Shown here one piece after another: positions 30,377 to 38,430 of a DNA stretch of 39,925 nucleotides (position 1 is the stretch's first letter; each line of letters opens with the position of its first letter). The DNA is taken from assembly GCA_016842045.1 (NCBI GenBank), contig JAEVEY010000026.1, forward strand, positions 1-39,925, read 5' to 3'. Below the pieces are notes generated by a model. That model was given only the letters and a program-made list of their open reading frames with translations, did no database searches and was not told the DNA's origin. Source of the stretch: Candidatus Thermoflexus sinensis (GTDB taxonomy: Bacteria; Chloroflexota; Anaerolineae; Thermoflexales; Thermoflexaceae). A program made the position numbers and the translations under genes.

Positions 30377-30404
30377 TTGACATGTTTTTTAATTCGCATA
30401 AAAT
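30377..30404 (+). promoter_or_regulatory. Sigma-A promoter of the aspartokinase leader
   Basis: A perfect TTGACA (30377-30382) and TAAAAT (30399-30404) are separated by 16 bases. The start of transcription would be near 30411, about 236 bases before the aspartokinase start, leaving a leader long enough for attenuation. Confidence 0.8.
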
Positions 30405-30429
30405 TTATGGCAACCTGATCCGAATACGG

Positions 30430-30561
30430 ATGAGCGACGGGATGGCTTGCGAGCGGATGTCCCAGAACATCTCCCTGGTGACGATGATGACGACCGGGAT
30501 GATGACCACCGGTTGGCGGGGTGGCCGGGGGGATGTTCGGGTTATGGTCCAAAGCCGATAG
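30430..30561 (+). CDS. Thr/Met-rich leader peptide of the aspartokinase attenuator
   Basis: This frame of up to 43 codons (in-frame ATGs at 30430, 30442 and 30457; stop TAG 30559-30561) lies 20 to 50 bases after the predicted transcription start. Ten consecutive codons at 30481-30510 read TMMTTGMMTT, holding five Thr and four Met; an ISLV run precedes them. Such runs of end-product codons before an amino acid biosynthesis gene are the signature of ribosome-mediated attenuation, as in the enteric thr operon. Ribosome sites before the three ATGs are weak, so the true start is uncertain. The ATG at 30382 has a good GGAGG but overlaps the -35 box, so it is upstream of the transcript. Confidence 0.72.
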   Translation: MSDGMACERMSQNISLVTMMTTGMMTTGWRGGRGDVRVMVQSR

Positions 30562-30624
30562 CGCGCTTTCCAACCCTGTAAGGAAACGACCCCCCGGCCG
30601 GAACGGTCGGGGGGTCGTTTTTTA
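30523..30624 (+). terminator. Transcription attenuator: antiterminator arm and terminator
   Basis: The terminator is a 14-bp GC stem (30586-30599 with 30605-30618) closed by a GGAAC loop and followed by six T (30618-30623). The ten bases GGCCGGGGGG at 30523-30532 are the exact complement of CCCCCCGGCC at 30590-30599, the ascending arm of the terminator stem. They begin 13 bases after the Thr/Met codon run. A ribosome stalled on those codons would leave this arm free to pair and prevent termination. A further CCACC/GGTGG pairing (506-510 with 520-524, in the 30 kb numbering) could form the early pause hairpin. Confidence 0.75.
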
Positions 30625-30646
30625 TCCCTGAATGGTGGAGGCAGCC

Positions 30647-32038
30647 ATGCGGGTGATGAAGTTCGGGGGGACCTCGGTGGGGGATGCGGCCCGGTTTCAA
30701 CGGGTGGCGGAGTTGATCGCGCTGCACCGCGCTTCGGATCCCCAACTGGTTGTGGTGGTCTCCGCGATGGCGGGCGTGACGGATGCGCTCATCCGGATGA
30801 GCCATCAGGCCGCTCGGGGGGAGCCGGATTGGATCCCGGAGCTAACTGCCGTTCGGGACCGGCATCAGGATACTGTTCGGGCGCTGGCGCTGCCCGAGGA
30901 GGAAGCACGAGCCCTGGAGGCGGAGCTTCGAGAGGGGTTTGAGCGGGTAGAGACCGTTCTCCGGGCCGTGGCCGCTTTGAAGGAATTATCCCCCTCCACA
31001 GCGGACCTTCTGGCCGGAATGGGTGAACGCTGGAGTGCTCGCATCCTGGCCGCGGTGCTGCGGGCCCGAGGCATTCCATCCCGCGCGATCGATGCGGACA
31101 CCTTCCTGGTCACCGATGATCGCTTCGGAGAAGCCTCCCCGGATCTGGAGCAGACCCGGGCGCGGGCGCGGGCGCTGCTATTCCCCCTCCTGGAGCAGGG
31201 GATCCTGCCCGTTGTGACCGGGTTCATCGGCGCCACTCCGGAGGGCCGGCCGACCACCCTGGGGCGCGGCGGGTCGGATTTCTCCGCCACCATCCTGGGT
31301 TACGCGCTGGACGCGGAGGCCGTGTGGATCTGGACGGATGTGGATGGCGTGATGAGCGCGGATCCGAAGATCGTGCCGAACGCCCGCACCATCCCGGAGC
31401 TCTCTTACATTGAGGCGGCTGAGATGGCTTACTTTGGGGCGAAAGTTCTCCATCCCCGCACCCTGCTTCCGTGTATCGACCGGCGGATCCCGGTGCGCAT
31501 CCTCAACACGATGAACCCGCAACATCCGGGCACCTGGATCGTCCCGGAGCCCCGGGGCAACGGCCGGGTGAAGGCAGTGACGCTGATCAAGAACCTGAGC
31601 CTGGTCACGGTGGAGGGCCGGGGGATGCTGGGGGTGCCGGGAGTGGCGGCAAGGACCTTCGCCACAGTGGCGGAATTGGGGGTCAGCATCCTGATGATCT
31701 CCCAGTCGTCCTCGGAACAGAACATATGCTTCGTCATTCCCTCCCCGGCGGCAGCCCAGGTGGTTCGGGCGTTGCGGAAAGCGTTCGAGCGGGAGATGGC
31801 CCGGCGAGACATCGAGGACATCTGGGCGATGGATCGGGTGGCAGTCATCGCCGTGGTCGGGGCGGGGCTGCGGGCGACGCCCGGGATCGCGGCGCGGGTC
31901 TTCAACGCCCTGGGGAATGGTCGCATCAACGTCCTCTCCATCGCCCAGGGGTCCTCAGAATACAACCTCTCTCTCGTGGTGGCGGAGAGCGAGGCGGAGG
32001 AAGCCGTCCGGCGCATCCATGCGGCGTTTTATGAGTAA
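30647..32038 (+). CDS. Aspartate kinase (monofunctional)
   Basis: The enzyme catalyses the first step of the aspartate pathway to Lys, Thr and Met. The 463-residue protein starts at 30647 (MRVMKFGGTSVGDAA), with GGAGG 5 bases upstream; 30632 is an in-frame alternative with a worse site. The kinase domain has KFGGTSV (residues 5-11), GRGGSDFSA and TDVDGVMSADP. Two ACT domains occupy about residues 310-460 and would bind an amino acid inhibitor. It is not fused to homoserine dehydrogenase. The class with this insert resembles plant, archaeal and ThrA-type kinases. The Thr/Met attenuator suggests it serves the Thr and Met branch. Confidence 0.94.
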   Translation: MRVMKFGGTSVGDAARFQRVAELIALHRASDPQLVVVVSAMAGVTDALIRMSHQAARGEPDWIPELTAVRDRHQDTVRALALPEEEARALEAELREGFERVETVLRAVAALKELSPSTADLLAGMGERWSARILAAVLRARGIPSRAIDADTFLVTDDRFGEASPDLEQTRARARALLFPLLEQGILPVVTGFIGATPEGRPTTLGRGGSDFSATILGYALDAEAVWIWTDVDGVMSADPKIVPNARTIPELSYIEAAEMAYFGAKVLHPRTLLPCIDRRIPVRILNTMNPQHPGTWIVPEPRGNGRVKAVTLIKNLSLVTVEGRGMLGVPGVAARTFATVAELGVSILMISQSSSEQNICFVIPSPAAAQVVRALRKAFEREMARRDIEDIWAMDRVAVIAVVGAGLRATPGIAARVFNALGNGRINVLSIAQGSSEYNLSLVVAESEAEEAVRRIHAAFYE

Positions 32039-32191: not shown

Positions 32192-33427
32192 GTGGGCCGT
32201 CCGCCGAAGGGCAGTCGGGATCTGATCAAAGCCATCAACCGCAACCTGGTTCTGAACCTTATTCAGAGCCGGGGTCCGCTCTCGCGCACGGACATCGCGC
32301 GGCTTTCGGGCCTGAGTCTGGCCGCGGTCTCGGAGATCACGGGCGAGCTGATCGCCACAGGGTTGATCCGTGAAGTCGGGACCGGGGAATCCAGCGGTGG
32401 CCGACGGCCGATCCTCCTCCGTCTCAACCCCCAGGCCGGCTTCGTAGTTGGGGTCAAGCTGATGAAACACGCCATCGCCAGCGCGTTGACCGACCTGGAC
32501 GCCAAGGTCCTCCATCATCGGGTAGCTCCCCTGAGGTCGGCCCGCCTGCCCCAGGTGCTTCGGGCGATCGTCCGGGCGGTGGAGGCCACCATCGACGAGT
32601 CCGGGGTGGAGCGCTCGCGGGTGCTGGGCATCGGGATCGGGATGGCGGGGATTGTGGATGGAGAGAGCGGGATCTGTCGGTATTCCCCCTTTTTCGGCTG
32701 GCGGAACGTCCAGATCGCCGAACCCATCGCGGCCCATTTCGGGATCCCGGTCTATCTGGAGAACGATGTCAACACCCTGACGATCGCGGAGCAGTGGTTC
32801 GGTTACGGGCGCGACGTGGATCATTTCGTGGTGGTCACGGTCGGGCGGGGCATCGGCGCTGGCATCGTCGTCAACGGCCAATTCTACCGGGGGGCTCTGG
32901 GCGGCGCGGGGGAGCTGGGGCATATCACGATGATCGAGGGCGGCCCTTTGTGCGATTGCGGCAAGCGGGGATGTCTGGAGGCCCTGGCCGCCGATCCGGC
33001 TGTTCTGCGCGCGGCGCGGACGGCCATCGCCCGGGGGGAGCCGACGCGGCTGGCCGAGGCGGATCCCCTGACGCTGGAGGCGGTGGTCGCGGCGGCCGAG
33101 GCGGGGGATGAATTGGCTCGGAAGCTGCTGGCCGATTCGGGCCGCTGGCTGGGGATGGGGATCGCGATCCTGGTCAACCTCCTGAACCCCCAACTGGTCA
33201 TCGTGGGCGGGGAGGGGGTGCGGGCCGGGGAGTGGCGCTTCGGGCCCATGCGGGAGGCTTTACGGGCCCATGCCTTTAACGGCCTGGCGGACGAATTGGA
33301 GGTTGTTCTGGAGCCGGCGGGGGACGAAACCTGGGCGCGGGGTGCGGCCTGTGTGGTGTTGGGGGAGCTGTTCAAGTCGCCCGTCCACCGACGAACCCGG
33401 GAGGACTGGGTTCCCATTCCCGCGTGA
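32192..33427 (+). CDS. ROK-family transcriptional repressor
   Basis: This 411-residue sugar-sensing regulator resembles NagC, Mlc and XylR. An N-terminal winged helix-turn-helix is at about residues 22-75 (GPLSRTDIARLSGLSLAAVSEITGEL). The ROK domain has GIGIGMAGIVDGE, ENDVNTLTIAEQWFG, GRGIGAGIVVNG, GELGHITM, and the zinc site CDCGKRGCLE. The GTG at 32192 is the best start; an ATG at 32184 is out of frame. It sits before a sugar importer and two glucan hydrolases, so it probably controls them in response to an imported sugar. Strong promoter and operator candidates precede it. Confidence 0.9.
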   Translation: MGRPPKGSRDLIKAINRNLVLNLIQSRGPLSRTDIARLSGLSLAAVSEITGELIATGLIREVGTGESSGGRRPILLRLNPQAGFVVGVKLMKHAIASALTDLDAKVLHHRVAPLRSARLPQVLRAIVRAVEATIDESGVERSRVLGIGIGMAGIVDGESGICRYSPFFGWRNVQIAEPIAAHFGIPVYLENDVNTLTIAEQWFGYGRDVDHFVVVTVGRGIGAGIVVNGQFYRGALGGAGELGHITMIEGGPLCDCGKRGCLEALAADPAVLRAARTAIARGEPTRLAEADPLTLEAVVAAAEAGDELARKLLADSGRWLGMGIAILVNLLNPQLVIVGGEGVRAGEWRFGPMREALRAHAFNGLADELEVVLEPAGDETWARGAACVVLGELFKSPVHRRTREDWVPIPA

Positions 33428-33448
33428 TGCGGTTTTTTTGGCTTCACT

Positions 33449-33471
33449 TTCTTACTTTAGCGAAATAAGAA
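33449..33471 (+). promoter_or_regulatory. Candidate operator upstream of the sugar ABC importer
   Basis: A 23-bp palindrome has perfect TTCTTA (33449-33454) and TAAGAA (33466-33471) outer arms and inner TTT/AAA arms around AGCG. It stands 22 bases after the ROK gene stop and 166 bases before the binding-protein gene. Related AT-rich palindromes are typical ROK targets. A promoter overlapping it (TTCACT 33443-33448, TAAGAA 33466-33471) is only a weak match. Confidence 0.5.
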
Positions 33472-33636
33472 TGTTCGATAGGGAGGTCACGAATCTTTTG
33501 CGTGTCCATTGGCCTCGGGGGAGGAAGGCGGGGCCTGGAGCCCTGACCATTCGGGGGGTAAGGGTTCAATGCGCTTCATGCTCCGCCCGACGGCTTGAGT
33601 CGGAAAGATCCGCATCAGCTCTAAAAGGAGGCCGCC

Positions 33637-34959
33637 ATGTGCCAACTGAATGCTTCTGCGTTTCGTATCGGAATCGGCTGGATGTTGCTGGCGCTCTTAG
33701 CCACGGCGTGCGCGCCAGCAGCCGCTCCAACCCCGGGCCCGAGCCCCACGCCAGTGGTGGTGGAGCGAGTGGTGACCCCGACGCCCACTCCCCCAGGTCC
33801 GGTGACCATCACCTTCTGGCACGCCTACAACCCGGAGGAGACGAAGGTCTTCAACGACCAGGTCCTCCCCGCCTTCCACCAAAAGTTCCCCAACATTCGG
33901 GTCGAGGCCCAGCAGATCCCATACGATGAATTCCGTCGGAAGCTCCTGACCAGCATCGCGGGCGGGACCGCCCCGGACGTGATCCGCTCTGACATCATCT
34001 GGGTGCCGGAGCTGGCGGCAATGGGAGCCCTGGAGGCCCTGGACGTGATCATGCCTGATTTCAACGCTTACAAAGAGAAGGTATTCCCCGGGCCCTTGTC
34101 GACCAACTTCTGGCAGGGCCACTACTACGGCCTGCCGTTGGATACCAACACCCGGCTTCTGATGTGGAATAAAGAGATGTATGCGGCCGCCGGGGTCACC
34201 GAACCCCCCAAGACGATCGATGAGTTCCTGAAGGTCTGTGAGCGGATCAAAGCCCTGGGAAGGGACAAGTACTGCTTTGCCGATGGTGGCACCTATGGTT
34301 GGGCCGTGCTCCCCTGGATCTGGAGCTTCGGCGGCGACCTGACGGACTCTGAGATGAAGACCGCCAGTGGGTATGTGAACGGGCCGGACACGGTGGCCGC
34401 TTATGAGTTCCTCAAGGGGATGTTGGACAAGGGCTACCTCCATCCTGGCATCCTCGGCGGGGGTGTGGACACGGCGGGCGGATTTGCGCGCGATGAGATC
34501 GCCAACCTGTTGGAGGGACCCTGGATGCCGGCGATCTTTGCCGCCCAGTACCCCCAGAAGCAGATCCAGTGGGCGCTAATGCCGGCCGGGAAGGGCGGCT
34601 CGATCTCTGTGGTCGGGGGTGAGGACATCGTGCTGTTCAAGCAGAGCCGGAACAAAGAGGCCGCCCTGGAGTTCATCCGGTTCATGCTCAGCCCTGAAGC
34701 CCAGCTCATGATGGCCCGGGTGGGTCAGGTTCCGGTGCGCATCGACGTCACCGAGCAGGCCGTCCAAGCACAACCTTACTTCGCGCTCTTCTTCGAGCAA
34801 CTCAAGACCGCGCGGGCGCGGCTGCCCCATCCCAATTGGCCAAAGATCGAAGATTTGCTCACCAGCACTGGCCAGGCCATCCTGCGCGGGGAGAAGGGGG
34901 CCAAGGAAGCCCTCGATGAGCTTGCCCCGAAGATCGACGCCCTGCTCAAGCAACAATAA
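33637..34959 (+). CDS. Sugar ABC transporter substrate-binding lipoprotein (family 1)
   Basis: This extracellular binding protein belongs to the MalE/UgpB-type family. The 440-residue precursor has a lipobox ATAC with Cys25 after a hydrophobic stretch (11-24), then a Pro/Thr linker to about residue 57. The mature domain begins VTITFWHAYNPEE and has the family features GTAPDVI, YGLPLDTNTRLLMWNKEM, a central GTYGWAVLPWIWSFGG, and EGPWMPAIF. AAAAGGAGG precedes the start. It is the first of three transporter genes; the hydrolases that follow suggest an alpha-glucan oligosaccharide ligand. Confidence 0.93.
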   Translation: MCQLNASAFRIGIGWMLLALLATACAPAAAPTPGPSPTPVVVERVVTPTPTPPGPVTITFWHAYNPEETKVFNDQVLPAFHQKFPNIRVEAQQIPYDEFRRKLLTSIAGGTAPDVIRSDIIWVPELAAMGALEALDVIMPDFNAYKEKVFPGPLSTNFWQGHYYGLPLDTNTRLLMWNKEMYAAAGVTEPPKTIDEFLKVCERIKALGRDKYCFADGGTYGWAVLPWIWSFGGDLTDSEMKTASGYVNGPDTVAAYEFLKGMLDKGYLHPGILGGGVDTAGGFARDEIANLLEGPWMPAIFAAQYPQKQIQWALMPAGKGGSISVVGGEDIVLFKQSRNKEAALEFIRFMLSPEAQLMMARVGQVPVRIDVTEQAVQAQPYFALFFEQLKTARARLPHPNWPKIEDLLTSTGQAILRGEKGAKEALDELAPKIDALLKQQ

Positions 34960-34976
34960 CCCCGACGACCACGCCT

Positions 34977-35001
34977 GGGGGCCGGGCCTAGCCCGGCCCC
35001 C
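34977..35001 (+). terminator. Strong hairpin between binding-protein and permease genes
   Basis: GGGGGCCGGGC (34977-34987) pairs perfectly with GCCCGGCCCCC (34991-35001) over a 3-base loop. No T-run follows, and the ribosome site of the permease gene begins right after it. It probably protects the binding-protein mRNA end or reduces readthrough, similar in position to the pstS hairpin. Confidence 0.6.
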
Positions 35002-35015
35002 GGGAGGAGGGAGCG

Positions 35016-35915
35016 GTGCGGAATCGAGGATCCCTTCACGCGCAGCGCCTTCGGGCAGCTTATCTGTTCATGCTCCCCGGCATGGCGTTCTTCCTCATTT
35101 TTTATCTCTACCCGCTGATCCAGGCGCTCCGGATCAGCCTGTACGAATGGTCCATTATGCCAGGGCAGGGCAGCCGGTTCGTGGGAGCCACCAATTACCT
35201 CCGCGCCCTTCGCGACCCGATCTTCTGGATCTCTATGCGGAACACGGTGCTCTACACCACCGTCACCGTGCCCGGGCAGATGATCCTGGCCATGCTGGTT
35301 GCTCTGGCGTTACACGCCATTCCCCGGGGGCGGGTGATATTCCGAACCCTTTATTACCTGCCGGTGATCACCTCGTGGGTGGTGGCGGCTCTGCTCTTCA
35401 AGTTCCTTTTTCATAGCCAGGGCGGCCTGATTAACTACCTCCTGGTCGACATTCTTCATCTGGCGGATCGCTACATCCCGTGGCTGCAGAACCCCGAGAC
35501 TGCCCTGGTCGCCATTATGACCCTGGGCATCTGGAAGGGGATCGGCTGGTCTATGGTGATCTTCCTGGCCGCCCTGCAGGACATCCCTCTCGAGCTATAT
35601 GAGGCGGCGGCCCTCGACGGGGCCGGGCGCTGGGGGCGGTTCCGATACGTCACCTTGCCGATGATGCGCCCAACGGCGATCTTCGTCTTGGTGATGCTGG
35701 TCATCGGGGGATTCAATGTCTTCCTGCCGGTTTACCTGATGACCGGCGGAGCGCCGATGCATCGGACCGAAACCCTCCTGACCTATATGTATAACGAGGC
35801 TTTTAACTTCCTGGATTTCGGCTATGGGGCCGCGCTCTCGTACATGCTGGCCGCCCTGATCTTCCTCTTGAGCTTCCTTCAAATCAAGCTCCTGCGCCGC
35901 CCTATGGAGCTTTAG
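35016..35915 (+). CDS. Sugar ABC transporter permease (MalF/UgpA type)
   Basis: This is the first membrane subunit of the importer. The 299-residue protein starts at GTG 35016 with GGAGGAGGGAG upstream. It has six hydrophobic segments, the first at about 18-40, and the EAA coupling loop LYEAAALDGAGRWGRFRYVTLP. The stop is 12 bases before the next permease gene, so they are cotranslated. The family imports di- and oligosaccharides. Confidence 0.92.
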   Translation: MRNRGSLHAQRLRAAYLFMLPGMAFFLIFYLYPLIQALRISLYEWSIMPGQGSRFVGATNYLRALRDPIFWISMRNTVLYTTVTVPGQMILAMLVALALHAIPRGRVIFRTLYYLPVITSWVVAALLFKFLFHSQGGLINYLLVDILHLADRYIPWLQNPETALVAIMTLGIWKGIGWSMVIFLAALQDIPLELYEAAALDGAGRWGRFRYVTLPMMRPTAIFVLVMLVIGGFNVFLPVYLMTGGAPMHRTETLLTYMYNEAFNFLDFGYGAALSYMLAALIFLLSFLQIKLLRRPMEL

Positions 35916-35927
35916 GGGGTCTCTTCC

Positions 35928-36770
35928 ATGGTCGCGAATCCGAAGCGACGGATTGTGGAGGTTGCGGTGCTTTACTTGCTGCTGGGGGCCGGCGCTGTGG
36001 CCACAGCCCTGCCCCTCCTGTACATGCTCTCCACTGCCCTCAAAGGGTCGGTCTACGTCCTGGAGATCCCGCCCCGCTTCATCCCGGAGCGGCCGACGCT
36101 GGCGAATTTCATCGAGGCCTGGAACTCCAACAACTTCTCTCTTTATTTTCGGAACAGCGCGGTGGTCGCTCTGAGCACCACGGTGATCTCCGTGCTATGT
36201 TCGGCTATGCTGGCCTACGCCTTTGCCCGCTTTGCGTTCCCGGGCAAGGACCTCGCCTTCTATGCCCTCCTGTTCACCTTGATGATCCCCAGTCTCACGC
36301 TGATCATCCCGCAGTTCATGCTGGCCCGAGCGCTGGGACTCCGGAACAGCCTGGCCGGATTGGTTTTCGTATACGTGGCGATGACCATTCCTTTGAATAC
36401 CTTCCTGCTCAGGGGCTTCTTCGAGCAGCTGCCCCGGGAGCTGGAAGAGGCGGTGTGGATCGACGGCGGGGGATACGGGACGATCTTCCTCCGCATCACC
36501 CTCCCCCTCTCTGCCCCCGCCCTGGCCACGGCGGCCATTTTCACTTTCCTCTTCGCGTGGGAGGAGTTCACCTGGGCGCTCACCGCCATCGATGTGGAAG
36601 CGATGCGGACGCTGCCGGTGGCCATCGCCACCTTCCACGGAGCTCACCTCACCCAGTGGGGGTTGGTCTTCGCCGCCTCTTTGATCGCCATCGCCCCGGT
36701 GATCTTCCTGTATGTGATGTTACAACGGTATTTCATCGTTGGGTTAAGTGCCGGCGCCCTCAAAGGATAA
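35928..36770 (+). CDS. Sugar ABC transporter permease (MalG/UgpE type)
   Basis: This is the second membrane subunit. The 280-residue protein has six hydrophobic segments and the EAA-type loop LEEAVWIDGGGYGTIFLRI, followed by LPLSAPALAT. The hydrolase gene starts 4 bases after its stop. No ABC ATPase gene is in the locus. Importers of this family often share an MsmK/MsiK-type ATPase encoded elsewhere, which I infer here. Confidence 0.92.
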   Translation: MVANPKRRIVEVAVLYLLLGAGAVATALPLLYMLSTALKGSVYVLEIPPRFIPERPTLANFIEAWNSNNFSLYFRNSAVVALSTTVISVLCSAMLAYAFARFAFPGKDLAFYALLFTLMIPSLTLIIPQFMLARALGLRNSLAGLVFVYVAMTIPLNTFLLRGFFEQLPRELEEAVWIDGGGYGTIFLRITLPLSAPALATAAIFTFLFAWEEFTWALTAIDVEAMRTLPVAIATFHGAHLTQWGLVFAASLIAIAPVIFLYVMLQRYFIVGLSAGALKG

Positions 36771-36774
36771 CCCA

Positions 36775-38430
36775 ATGGCGGCCCTCGATCTGTTCCCAGA
36801 CAAAGCGTTTTACTACCCCGGCGAGGCAGCGCGGATCACCGTGCGGATGCCTCCGTTGGAGGGGCTATCGTGGCAGGGGCGGATCCGCCTCCGGTTGATG
36901 TTCCTCGCGGACGAAGTCCTCGCCGTGGAGGAGGAGGTGGCCCTTGACCCCGGAGCCCCGGGGGAAATCCACATCCCGCTCCCCCTCCCGCCGGAGGATC
37001 CACGGGGCTATGGGGTGGACGCAGAGCTACGAGATGCGGAGGGGAAGCTCCTGGCCCGCGGATCGACGGCCCTCGATGTCCTTCGCCGCTGGACCGTGGC
37101 GCCCCGCTACGGGTTCCTCTCGGATTTCCCGCCCAATCGGCCCGATATTGAGGAGGTTGTGGAAGCGCTGGTTCAGTTCCACATCAACGGCCTTCAGTTC
37201 TACGACTGGATGTACCGCCATGAGGATCTGCTAACCGAAGAGGATCCTTACCGAGACCTACTGGGGCGCCTTCTCTCCCGGCGAACGGTGGAAGCTCTGA
37301 TCGAGGCGGCCCACCGCCGCAACATCGCGGCCATGGCCTATGCCGCGGTGTATGGGGCCTCGGTCGCTTTCGCTCGCGCGCGCCCGGGCTGGACCTTGTA
37401 TGGGGCCGATGGACACTCCCTGGGATTGGGCGAGGATTTCCTAAGTATTATGGATCCCCGCCCAGGTTCCCCTTGGGCCCAGCACCTGCTGCGGGAGCTC
37501 GCCGAGGTCATGCAGGTGACCCGGTTCGACGGCATCCATCTGGATCAATACGGGGAGCCGCGAACGGCCTGGGATGCCCATGGCCGCTTGGTGGACCTGG
37601 CCTCGGCCCTCCCCGCCTTCATTGAACAGGCCAGCGCAGTCATGCGGTCGATCCGTCCTGATGCGACGGTGGTCTTCAACGCCGTGAACAACTGGCCGAT
37701 CAAGGCGGTGGCGCGGACCCCCGTGGATTTCCTCTACATTGAGGTCTGGCCGCCCCATACCGCGTATTCGGATCTCTGGCGGTTGATCGTGAAGGGACAG
37801 CGCTTAGGAGGGGGCAAACCGGTCGTGTTGGCGGCGTATATCGACCCCGCGTGGGAGGTGAACGTGCGGCTGGCCGATGCGGTGATCTTCGCCAGCGGCG
37901 GCTACCACATCGAGCTGGGCGAGAGGGACCGCATGTTGGCCGACCCCTATTTCCCCAAGCACCGGCCTCTGAGTGAGGACCTGAGGGAGGTGCTGCGCCG
38001 CTATTATGATTTCGCCGTTCGTTATGAGAACGTGCTGGCCCTGGGGACCTGGGATAGCACGGCCGCGGCCATGAGGCGGATCGCTCTAAAGGGGCTCTCC
38101 GCGGGTTTGCCAGGGGCGACGGATGTTTGGATTATCGCCCGGAAAGGGGGGGGATTTGAGGCCATCAACTTGATCCTTGCACGCGGCCTTCCCCATCGGG
38201 AATGGAACCGCCCGCTGGAGATCGCCCCTTCGCCTTTAGAGGATATATCTGTTCGCTATTTCCCACCGCAGGCGGTCCGTCGGGTCTGGCTGGCCTCGCC
38301 GGACTTTGATAATCCTGTGGCGATGTGTCTGAGGTTTAAACCGGATCAGTGTCCGCAAGGGAATTATATTGAATTCACTGTTCCCCGCCTGGAATACTGG
38401 GATCTCTTGGTGATTGAATTTGCACAATAA
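36775..38430 (+). CDS. GH66 glycoside hydrolase (dextranase/cyclodextran enzyme family), probably cytoplasmic
   Basis: Family GH66 comprises endo-dextranases and cycloisomaltooligosaccharide glucanotransferases acting on alpha-1,6-glucan. The 551-residue protein starts at 36775 (MAALDLFPDKAF) with AAAGGA upstream. It has an N-terminal beta domain (about 1-110), then a TIM barrel with RFDGIHLDQYG, whose Asp257 fits the catalytic nucleophile, and FLYIEVWPP, whose Glu323 fits the acid/base. The 66-residue spacing is close to that in known members. No signal peptide is visible, unlike most characterised members, which are secreted. It lacks the large CBM35 insertion of glucanotransferases, so dextranase or cyclodextran hydrolysis is more likely than cyclisation. 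Confidence 0.8.
   Translation: MAALDLFPDKAFYYPGEAARITVRMPPLEGLSWQGRIRLRLMFLADEVLAVEEEVALDPGAPGEIHIPLPLPPEDPRGYGVDAELRDAEGKLLARGSTALDVLRRWTVAPRYGFLSDFPPNRPDIEEVVEALVQFHINGLQFYDWMYRHEDLLTEEDPYRDLLGRLLSRRTVEALIEAAHRRNIAAMAYAAVYGASVAFARARPGWTLYGADGHSLGLGEDFLSIMDPRPGSPWAQHLLRELAEVMQVTRFDGIHLDQYGEPRTAWDAHGRLVDLASALPAFIEQASAVMRSIRPDATVVFNAVNNWPIKAVARTPVDFLYIEVWPPHTAYSDLWRLIVKGQRLGGGKPVVLAAYIDPAWEVNVRLADAVIFASGGYHIELGERDRMLADPYFPKHRPLSEDLREVLRRYYDFAVRYENVLALGTWDSTAAAMRRIALKGLSAGLPGATDVWIIARKGGGFEAINLILARGLPHREWNRPLEIAPSPLEDISVRYFPPQAVRRVWLASPDFDNPVAMCLRFKPDQCPQGNYIEFTVPRLEYWDLLVIEFAQ

Follow-up and report, generated by a model that had tools for sequence, protein, structure and literature searches.

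In enteric bacteria, the operon encoding the bifunctional kinase, thr, is controlled by a leader that carries threonine and isoleucine codons. The Thr leader (RF00506) is listed in a 2013 survey, according to which the amino acid attenuators represented in Rfam are limited to those for His, Leu, Thr, and Trp; the survey adds Ile/Val and Phe and suggests that amino acid attenuators originated in the gammaproteobacteria (PMC3766115). In the Actinobacteria, attenuators have been described for trp, ilv, and leuS, and the survey concerned reported that operons for threonine, lysine, or methionine had no conserved RNA structures ahead of them (PMC1262725). Our literature search, which mostly covered papers available without subscription, found neither a leader peptide attenuator combining threonine with methionine nor an attenuator of an aspartokinase in the Chloroflexota.

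The hot-spring bacterium Thermoflexus belongs to the Anaerolineae, within the Chloroflexota. Our analysis indicates that its sole aspartokinase is very probably controlled by transcription attenuation, mediated by the ribosome and responsive to charged tRNA-Thr and charged tRNA-Met together. The window, by which we mean the whole stretch of DNA analyzed (39,925 nucleotides), derives from this genus: among named genomes, the aspartokinases 83–95% identical to that of the window are all from Thermoflexus. The element resembles the enteric thr attenuator (RF00506, thrL) in having a leader peptide with Thr codons, terminator and antiterminator structures that exclude each other, and control of an aspartokinase. 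It differs in using Thr/Met codons, in controlling a monofunctional lone kinase, in occurring in a different phylum, in having no match to RF00506, and in placing the leader stop codon beyond arm 2 and not in the interval that separates arm 1 from arm 2. It shares with the actinobacterial attenuators (PMC1262725) the combination of a leader peptide and a terminator/antiterminator outside the Proteobacteria, although the amino acids are different.

All features of the element lie on the forward strand. A sigma-70-type promoter, TTGACA-16-TAAAAT, occupies positions 30377–30404 (hexamers at 30377–30382 and 30399–30404, with a 16-nt spacer and 11 of 12 consensus matches), and it is the sole promoter-like site in a scan of 601 bp, where shuffled sequences lead one to expect 0.2. 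A leader peptide ORF, MSDGMACERMSQNISLVTMMTTGMMTTGWRGGRGDVRVMVQSR, follows at 30430–30561; its start may be the in-frame ATG at 30430 (43 aa), 30442, or 30457, its stop is the TAG at 30559–30561, and no obvious Shine-Dalgarno sequence lies ahead of any of the three candidate starts in the window. Codons 30481–30510, the putative sensor, read ACG ATG ATG ACG ACC GGG ATG ATG ACC ACC (TMMTTGMMTT), that is, five Thr, four Met, and one Gly in 10 codons, and no other ORF across the 40 kb has such a density. The controlled gene, at 30647–32038, matches the aspartokinase model TIGR00657 with 436 bits (cut-off 208.7), and its closest solved chain is 3c1m/2hmf; the start at 30647 is backed by conservation and by a GGAGG at 30638–30642. 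It is the only aspartokinase gene in the genome, the second search match being weak, partial, and confined to the kinase fold.

Between the promoter and the kinase gene lie four arms. Arm 1, CCAGAACATCTCCCTGG (30462–30478), is complementary to CCGGGGGGATGTTCGGG at 30525–30541 (17 nt, 82%). Arm 2 (30523–30541), which begins with GGCCGGGGGG at 30523–30532, is the partner of arm 1 in the OFF state or of arm 3 in the ON state, and its segment 30523–30537 is 87% complementary to 30585–30599 in arm 3. Arm 3 (30584–30600) is at once the rising arm of the terminator and the alternative partner of arm 2; arm 4 (30604–30620), the falling arm, is 94% complementary to it over 17 nt. The resulting hairpin has an energy of -32.8 kcal/mol, and a run of six T (30618–30623) completes the intrinsic terminator. 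The codon run sits between arms 1 and 2, and the leader stop codon comes after arm 2. The promoter, codon run, antiterminator arm, terminator, and kinase start that the initial annotation had proposed are all confirmed base for base, and arm 1, absent from that first reading, is added here. Judged by its sequence, the element is a complete four-arm attenuator, in which 1:2 would protect, 2:3 antiterminate, and 3:4 terminate, and the stability of the folded leader exceeds that of shuffled sequences by 4.8 sd.

When threonine and methionine are plentiful, the ribosome would pass the codon run without stalling, and arms 1 and 2 would re-pair behind it; were the leader not translated, they would pair at once. 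With 1:2 formed, arm 3 would be free to form the 3:4 terminator, and transcription would end short of the kinase gene. A scarcity of charged tRNA-Thr or tRNA-Met would stall the ribosome within 30481–30510 and block 1:2; arm 2 would then capture arm 3 as soon as it was transcribed, and the polymerase would continue into the kinase gene. Three points in this scheme are inferences: translation of the leader ORF, the dependence of stalling on both tRNAs, and a substantial extent of termination in the living cell.

Minimum-energy folding of successively longer transcripts with the ribosome footprint masked, which provides models only, is consistent with this scheme. In free RNA, 1:2 forms from 30545 onward and is followed by 3:4 once arm 4 appears (OFF). 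With the A site at 30481–30490 masked, 1:2 is lost and 2:3 is found at transcript ends 30595–30605, until arm 4 has been made (ON). When the A site is moved to the end of the run (30502–30508), the model leaves arm 1 uncovered, and that a ribosome there blocks 1:2 is assumed on steric grounds. In the full-length transcript the terminator beats the antiterminator in free energy, and thus the switch must act kinetically. The initial annotation had named as a weakness that a ribosome waiting at the stop codon frees the antiterminator arm. With a ribosome at 30559–30561 (30540–30570 masked), 2:3 becomes possible in the model as well as 1:2, and the OFF state therefore depends on early formation of 1:2. 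By sequestering arm 2 early, arm 1 would supply the default OFF state, which answers the weakness.

All eight Thermoflexus genomes with upstream DNA retain the promoter (a -35 TTGACA and a -10-like hexamer), a homologous leader ORF in which Thr and Met codons form a run, the arm 2 sequence, and the terminator. The original reading was to be tested by asking whether close relatives conserve the codon run and the pairing of the arms, and both the run and the arm 2 and terminator elements are kept in eight of eight. The core of arm 2, [GA]GCCGGGGG[GA], is conserved in every member, and the terminator has the form CCCCCCGGCC...GGGGGG. The leader cores are TMMTTGMMTTG, MTTTGMMTTG, ATTTGMMTTG, MMTTTGMMTTG, TKTTTEPMTTG, MTVTGMMTTG, MTMTGMMTTG, and TTTMTGMMTTG; within the run the Thr codons differ at the third base, Thr and Met interchange at the same columns, and pN/pS is 0.62, compared with 1.26 downstream of the run. 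An arm 1 complementary to arm 2 is present upstream in six members (the window and five others), and the remaining two, L002 and L003, have a different arm 1 that is built from the Thr codons themselves. Locus L003 (genome G008) is unlike all other members in carrying ~90 extra bases between the terminator and the kinase start. The proposal of a combined Thr plus Met sensor without Lys codons needs one refinement, in that threonine is the constant signal and methionine the variable one: in one Thermoflexus leader (L005) most Met codons have been lost, the run having six Thr to a single Met, and a Lys codon is present.

The attenuator is not confined to the source organism, and versions of it recur in other families of the Anaerolineae. 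A search for the exact arms in 400 Chloroflexota genomes gave matches in Thermoflexus only; the arms diverge too far for such a pattern, and the survey therefore relied on inspecting the DNA ahead of aspartokinase genes for leader ORFs. Among 168 distinct upstreams, nearly all from Anaerolineae, 20 contain a dense run (at least seven Thr plus Met in 10 codons, each represented at least twice, within an ORF of 12–75 codons); the reverse strand has none, and neither do 10 shuffled sets generated with a first-order Markov model. Met+Thr is the commonest of the 190 amino acid pairs at this threshold (20 upstreams) and also at eight or more (13 upstreams; next best, 5). At the looser threshold of six, background pairs such as Ala+Arg dominate, which locates the signal in the dense runs. 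In all, 28 leaders were collected (Thermoflexus, 8; family f27, 10; f21, 4; f19, 4; f134, 1; f13, 1): those of Thermoflexus, f27, f21, f19, and f134 are Thr/Met leaders, and a sixth family, f13, has a Thr-only leader (L116). Examples of runs are MTMTTTTS, TMSMTTTT, and ITTTTS in f27, MTTTMMTTT in f21, and TTTTMMTTM in f19. Over the 28 leaders, Thr accounts for 138 and Met for 70 of 243 run residues, with Gly next at 14, and the leader peptides of different families have no obvious relatedness outside the run. None of 35 further distinct upstreams, drawn from across the phylum and mostly outside the Anaerolineae, scored 5 or more; a search of viral contigs found no relative, and no T/M leaders were found before hom, thrC, dapA, or lysW of Thermoflexus.

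In 28 of 28 leaders, a terminator hairpin whose tail is rich in T lies between leader stop and gene; those of L004–L008, which the automatic finder misplaced or missed, were placed by hand and their energies recomputed. The duplex energy of the antiterminator is well below that of shuffled sequences in most Thermoflexus, most f27 members, and L116, and the putative antiterminator pairing is convincing in these three groups. The duplex is weak in f21, L005, L123, and L139 (not far below shuffles in the last three), and no clear antiterminator arm was found by duplex energy in f19. The structural claim is therefore carried by Thermoflexus and f27, and f19 supports it by run and terminator only. 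A quick tree was made of 131 kinases, among them 23 with leaders but none from f19 or f134, and on it the leader label needs at least 4 changes, compared with 21.5 in shuffles; the leader may have been gained several times, or gained once and then lost in some lineages.

The same layout is seen in family f27, where the sequence is unrelated: the run comes first and is followed by arm 1 CCTC..CGG, arm 2 CCGTGAGG, the stop codon, arm 3 CCTCACGG, and arm 4. A check for compensatory changes in the stems, proposed at the outset, found that arms 1, 2, and 3 change together in this family. Specifically, joint changes occur in L123 (CCCC / CCGTGGGG / CCCCACGG), L137 (CCCT / CCGCAGGG / CCCTGCG), and L138 (CCGCGAGG / CCTCGC). 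With each member's own arm 2, 70 of 70 pairs form in 1:2 and 74 of 80 in 2:3 of the hand-aligned arms. When arm 2 was exchanged among f27 sequences, both values were reached in 3 of 5000 trials, a figure that is indicative rather than a strict probability, since the sequences are related and the arms were aligned by hand. In three f27 upstreams (L115, L030, and L132), the leader ATG lies ~11 nt past the -10 box (TAGAAT-ACCGCCCAATATG), which suggests that the leader peptide may come from a nearly leaderless mRNA. Taken together, the element has every feature of a classical ribosome-mediated attenuator that can be assessed without experiment: a promoter and leader transcript upstream of the gene, a cluster of end-product codons, an intrinsic terminator, a mutually exclusive antiterminator, a sequestering arm 1, and conservation with compensatory changes.

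Orthologous kinase genes carry other RNA devices. SAM riboswitches (RF00162) lie directly upstream of the aspartokinase in five upstreams (L021:1290–1418, L020:2533–2712, L061:1218–1351, L082:361–492, and L084:1156–1284), and a T-box (RF00230) is similarly placed at L023:1222–1462; it scores 84.5 bits, under the gathering score of 93, and its specifier aligns as ACC (Thr) with the Rfam consensus. At L115:4112–4301 there is a further SAM riboswitch, ~1.2 kb downstream of a leader-controlled aspartokinase and probably on a separate gene. The SAM riboswitch shares with the attenuator its gene and RNA feedback from the methionine branch, and differs in sensing SAM directly, without a leader peptide; the T-box shares the gene, and differs in binding uncharged tRNA directly, without translation. 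The SAM riboswitches and the Thr-like T-box suggest that Thr and Met/SAM are the usual signals for this gene, which the leader peptide would combine.

These orthologues bear on two of the readings that compete with a dual attenuator. The most serious, although still unlikely, is that the device responds to tRNA-Thr alone, the Met codons being mere filler that is tolerated. Every leader has Thr, the runs of L116 and L136 have no Met, L005 has six Thr to one Met, and the L023 T-box is Thr-like, all of which would suit such a device; Met, however, is second in the runs by far (70 of 243, with Gly next at 14) in families that otherwise share no leader sequence, Thr and Met swap at the same Thermoflexus columns, and the SAM riboswitches make Met status a usual signal for the gene. 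The presence of SAM riboswitches and a T-box before the gene in sister families might also prompt the view that the window itself carries a riboswitch, T-box, or protein-binding leader instead of a translated one. This we consider scarcely credible, as no family reached its gathering score when the window was compared with the Rfam covariance models, including RF00506 and the T-box, SAM riboswitch, and lysine riboswitch models, and the conserved elements are codons and short arms with no aptamer fold.

The peptide, rather than its codons, could be the sensor if a nascent TTGMMTTG chain stalled the ribosome on a metabolite such as SAM or free threonine, and a TGMMTTG core is indeed found in seven of the eight Thermoflexus leaders. 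Across families, however, only the Thr/Met composition is shared and the order differs (MTMTTTTS, TTTMMTTT, TTTTMMTTM), and in L005 the core is broken to TTTEPMTTG while the RNA arms are retained; an arrest peptide is accordingly very improbable. Hardly any weight attaches to a constitutive terminator that merely trims transcripts behind a fortuitous, nonregulatory ORF: terminators often precede genes, but here the run is enriched relative to shuffles and the reverse strand, the run is conserved, and the three arms covary. The dual Thr and Met attenuator is the reading we retain.

Its choice of codons is matched by the pathway. The genome has one homoserine dehydrogenase and matches to threonine synthase. 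A search for dapB found none in seven of seven Thermoflexus genomes, and the same search was also negative in Thermus, Deinobacterium, and Sulfolobus, where lysine is made by the LysW route; lysW is present in all seven, adjoining genes that, read by eye, are lysX-like and lysY-like. A dapA-like gene is present in Thermoflexus, and this family also occurs in Thermus. With a single aspartokinase, no dapB, and lysW present, lysine probably does not pass through the Thermoflexus aspartokinase, which would explain a sensor with Thr and Met codons and no Lys codons. The earlier suggestion that the kinase is specific to the Thr/Met branch is thereby supported (one aspartokinase per genome, dapB 0 of 7, lysW 7 of 7). 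In the other leader-bearing families, counting leader-bearing genomes only, dapB is above the cut-off in 0 of 16 and lysW is present in 13 of 16. Downstream of the kinase, positions 32192–38430 hold genes for a regulator of the ROK family, for the binding protein and two permeases of an ABC sugar transporter, and for a member of glycosyl hydrolase family 66, which likely form a sugar-uptake locus unrelated to the attenuator.

A broader proposal, to which we assign an even chance, is that the dual Thr and Met attenuator arose more than once in the Anaerolineae and replaced separate control by a SAM riboswitch and a Thr T-box, the reason being that lysine there comes from the LysW route and the single kinase serves only the Thr/Met/Ile branch. 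Within one bacterial class, one gene is found with three RNA devices, a leader peptide, a SAM riboswitch, and a T-box, which offers a natural test of how control elements may be swapped with the logic unchanged. The choice of sensor codons appears to track how the pathway is laid out, lysine codons being absent where the lysine branch is. For the physiology of Thermoflexus, T. hugenholtzii has been predicted to be unable to make homoserine, threonine, methionine, or lysine de novo (PMC8129789), and a conserved feedback switch stands on the first enzyme of the very route predicted to be incapable. The conserved Thr/Met switch, the matches to hom and thrC, and the presence of lysW together suggest that this predicted auxotrophy deserves a second look.
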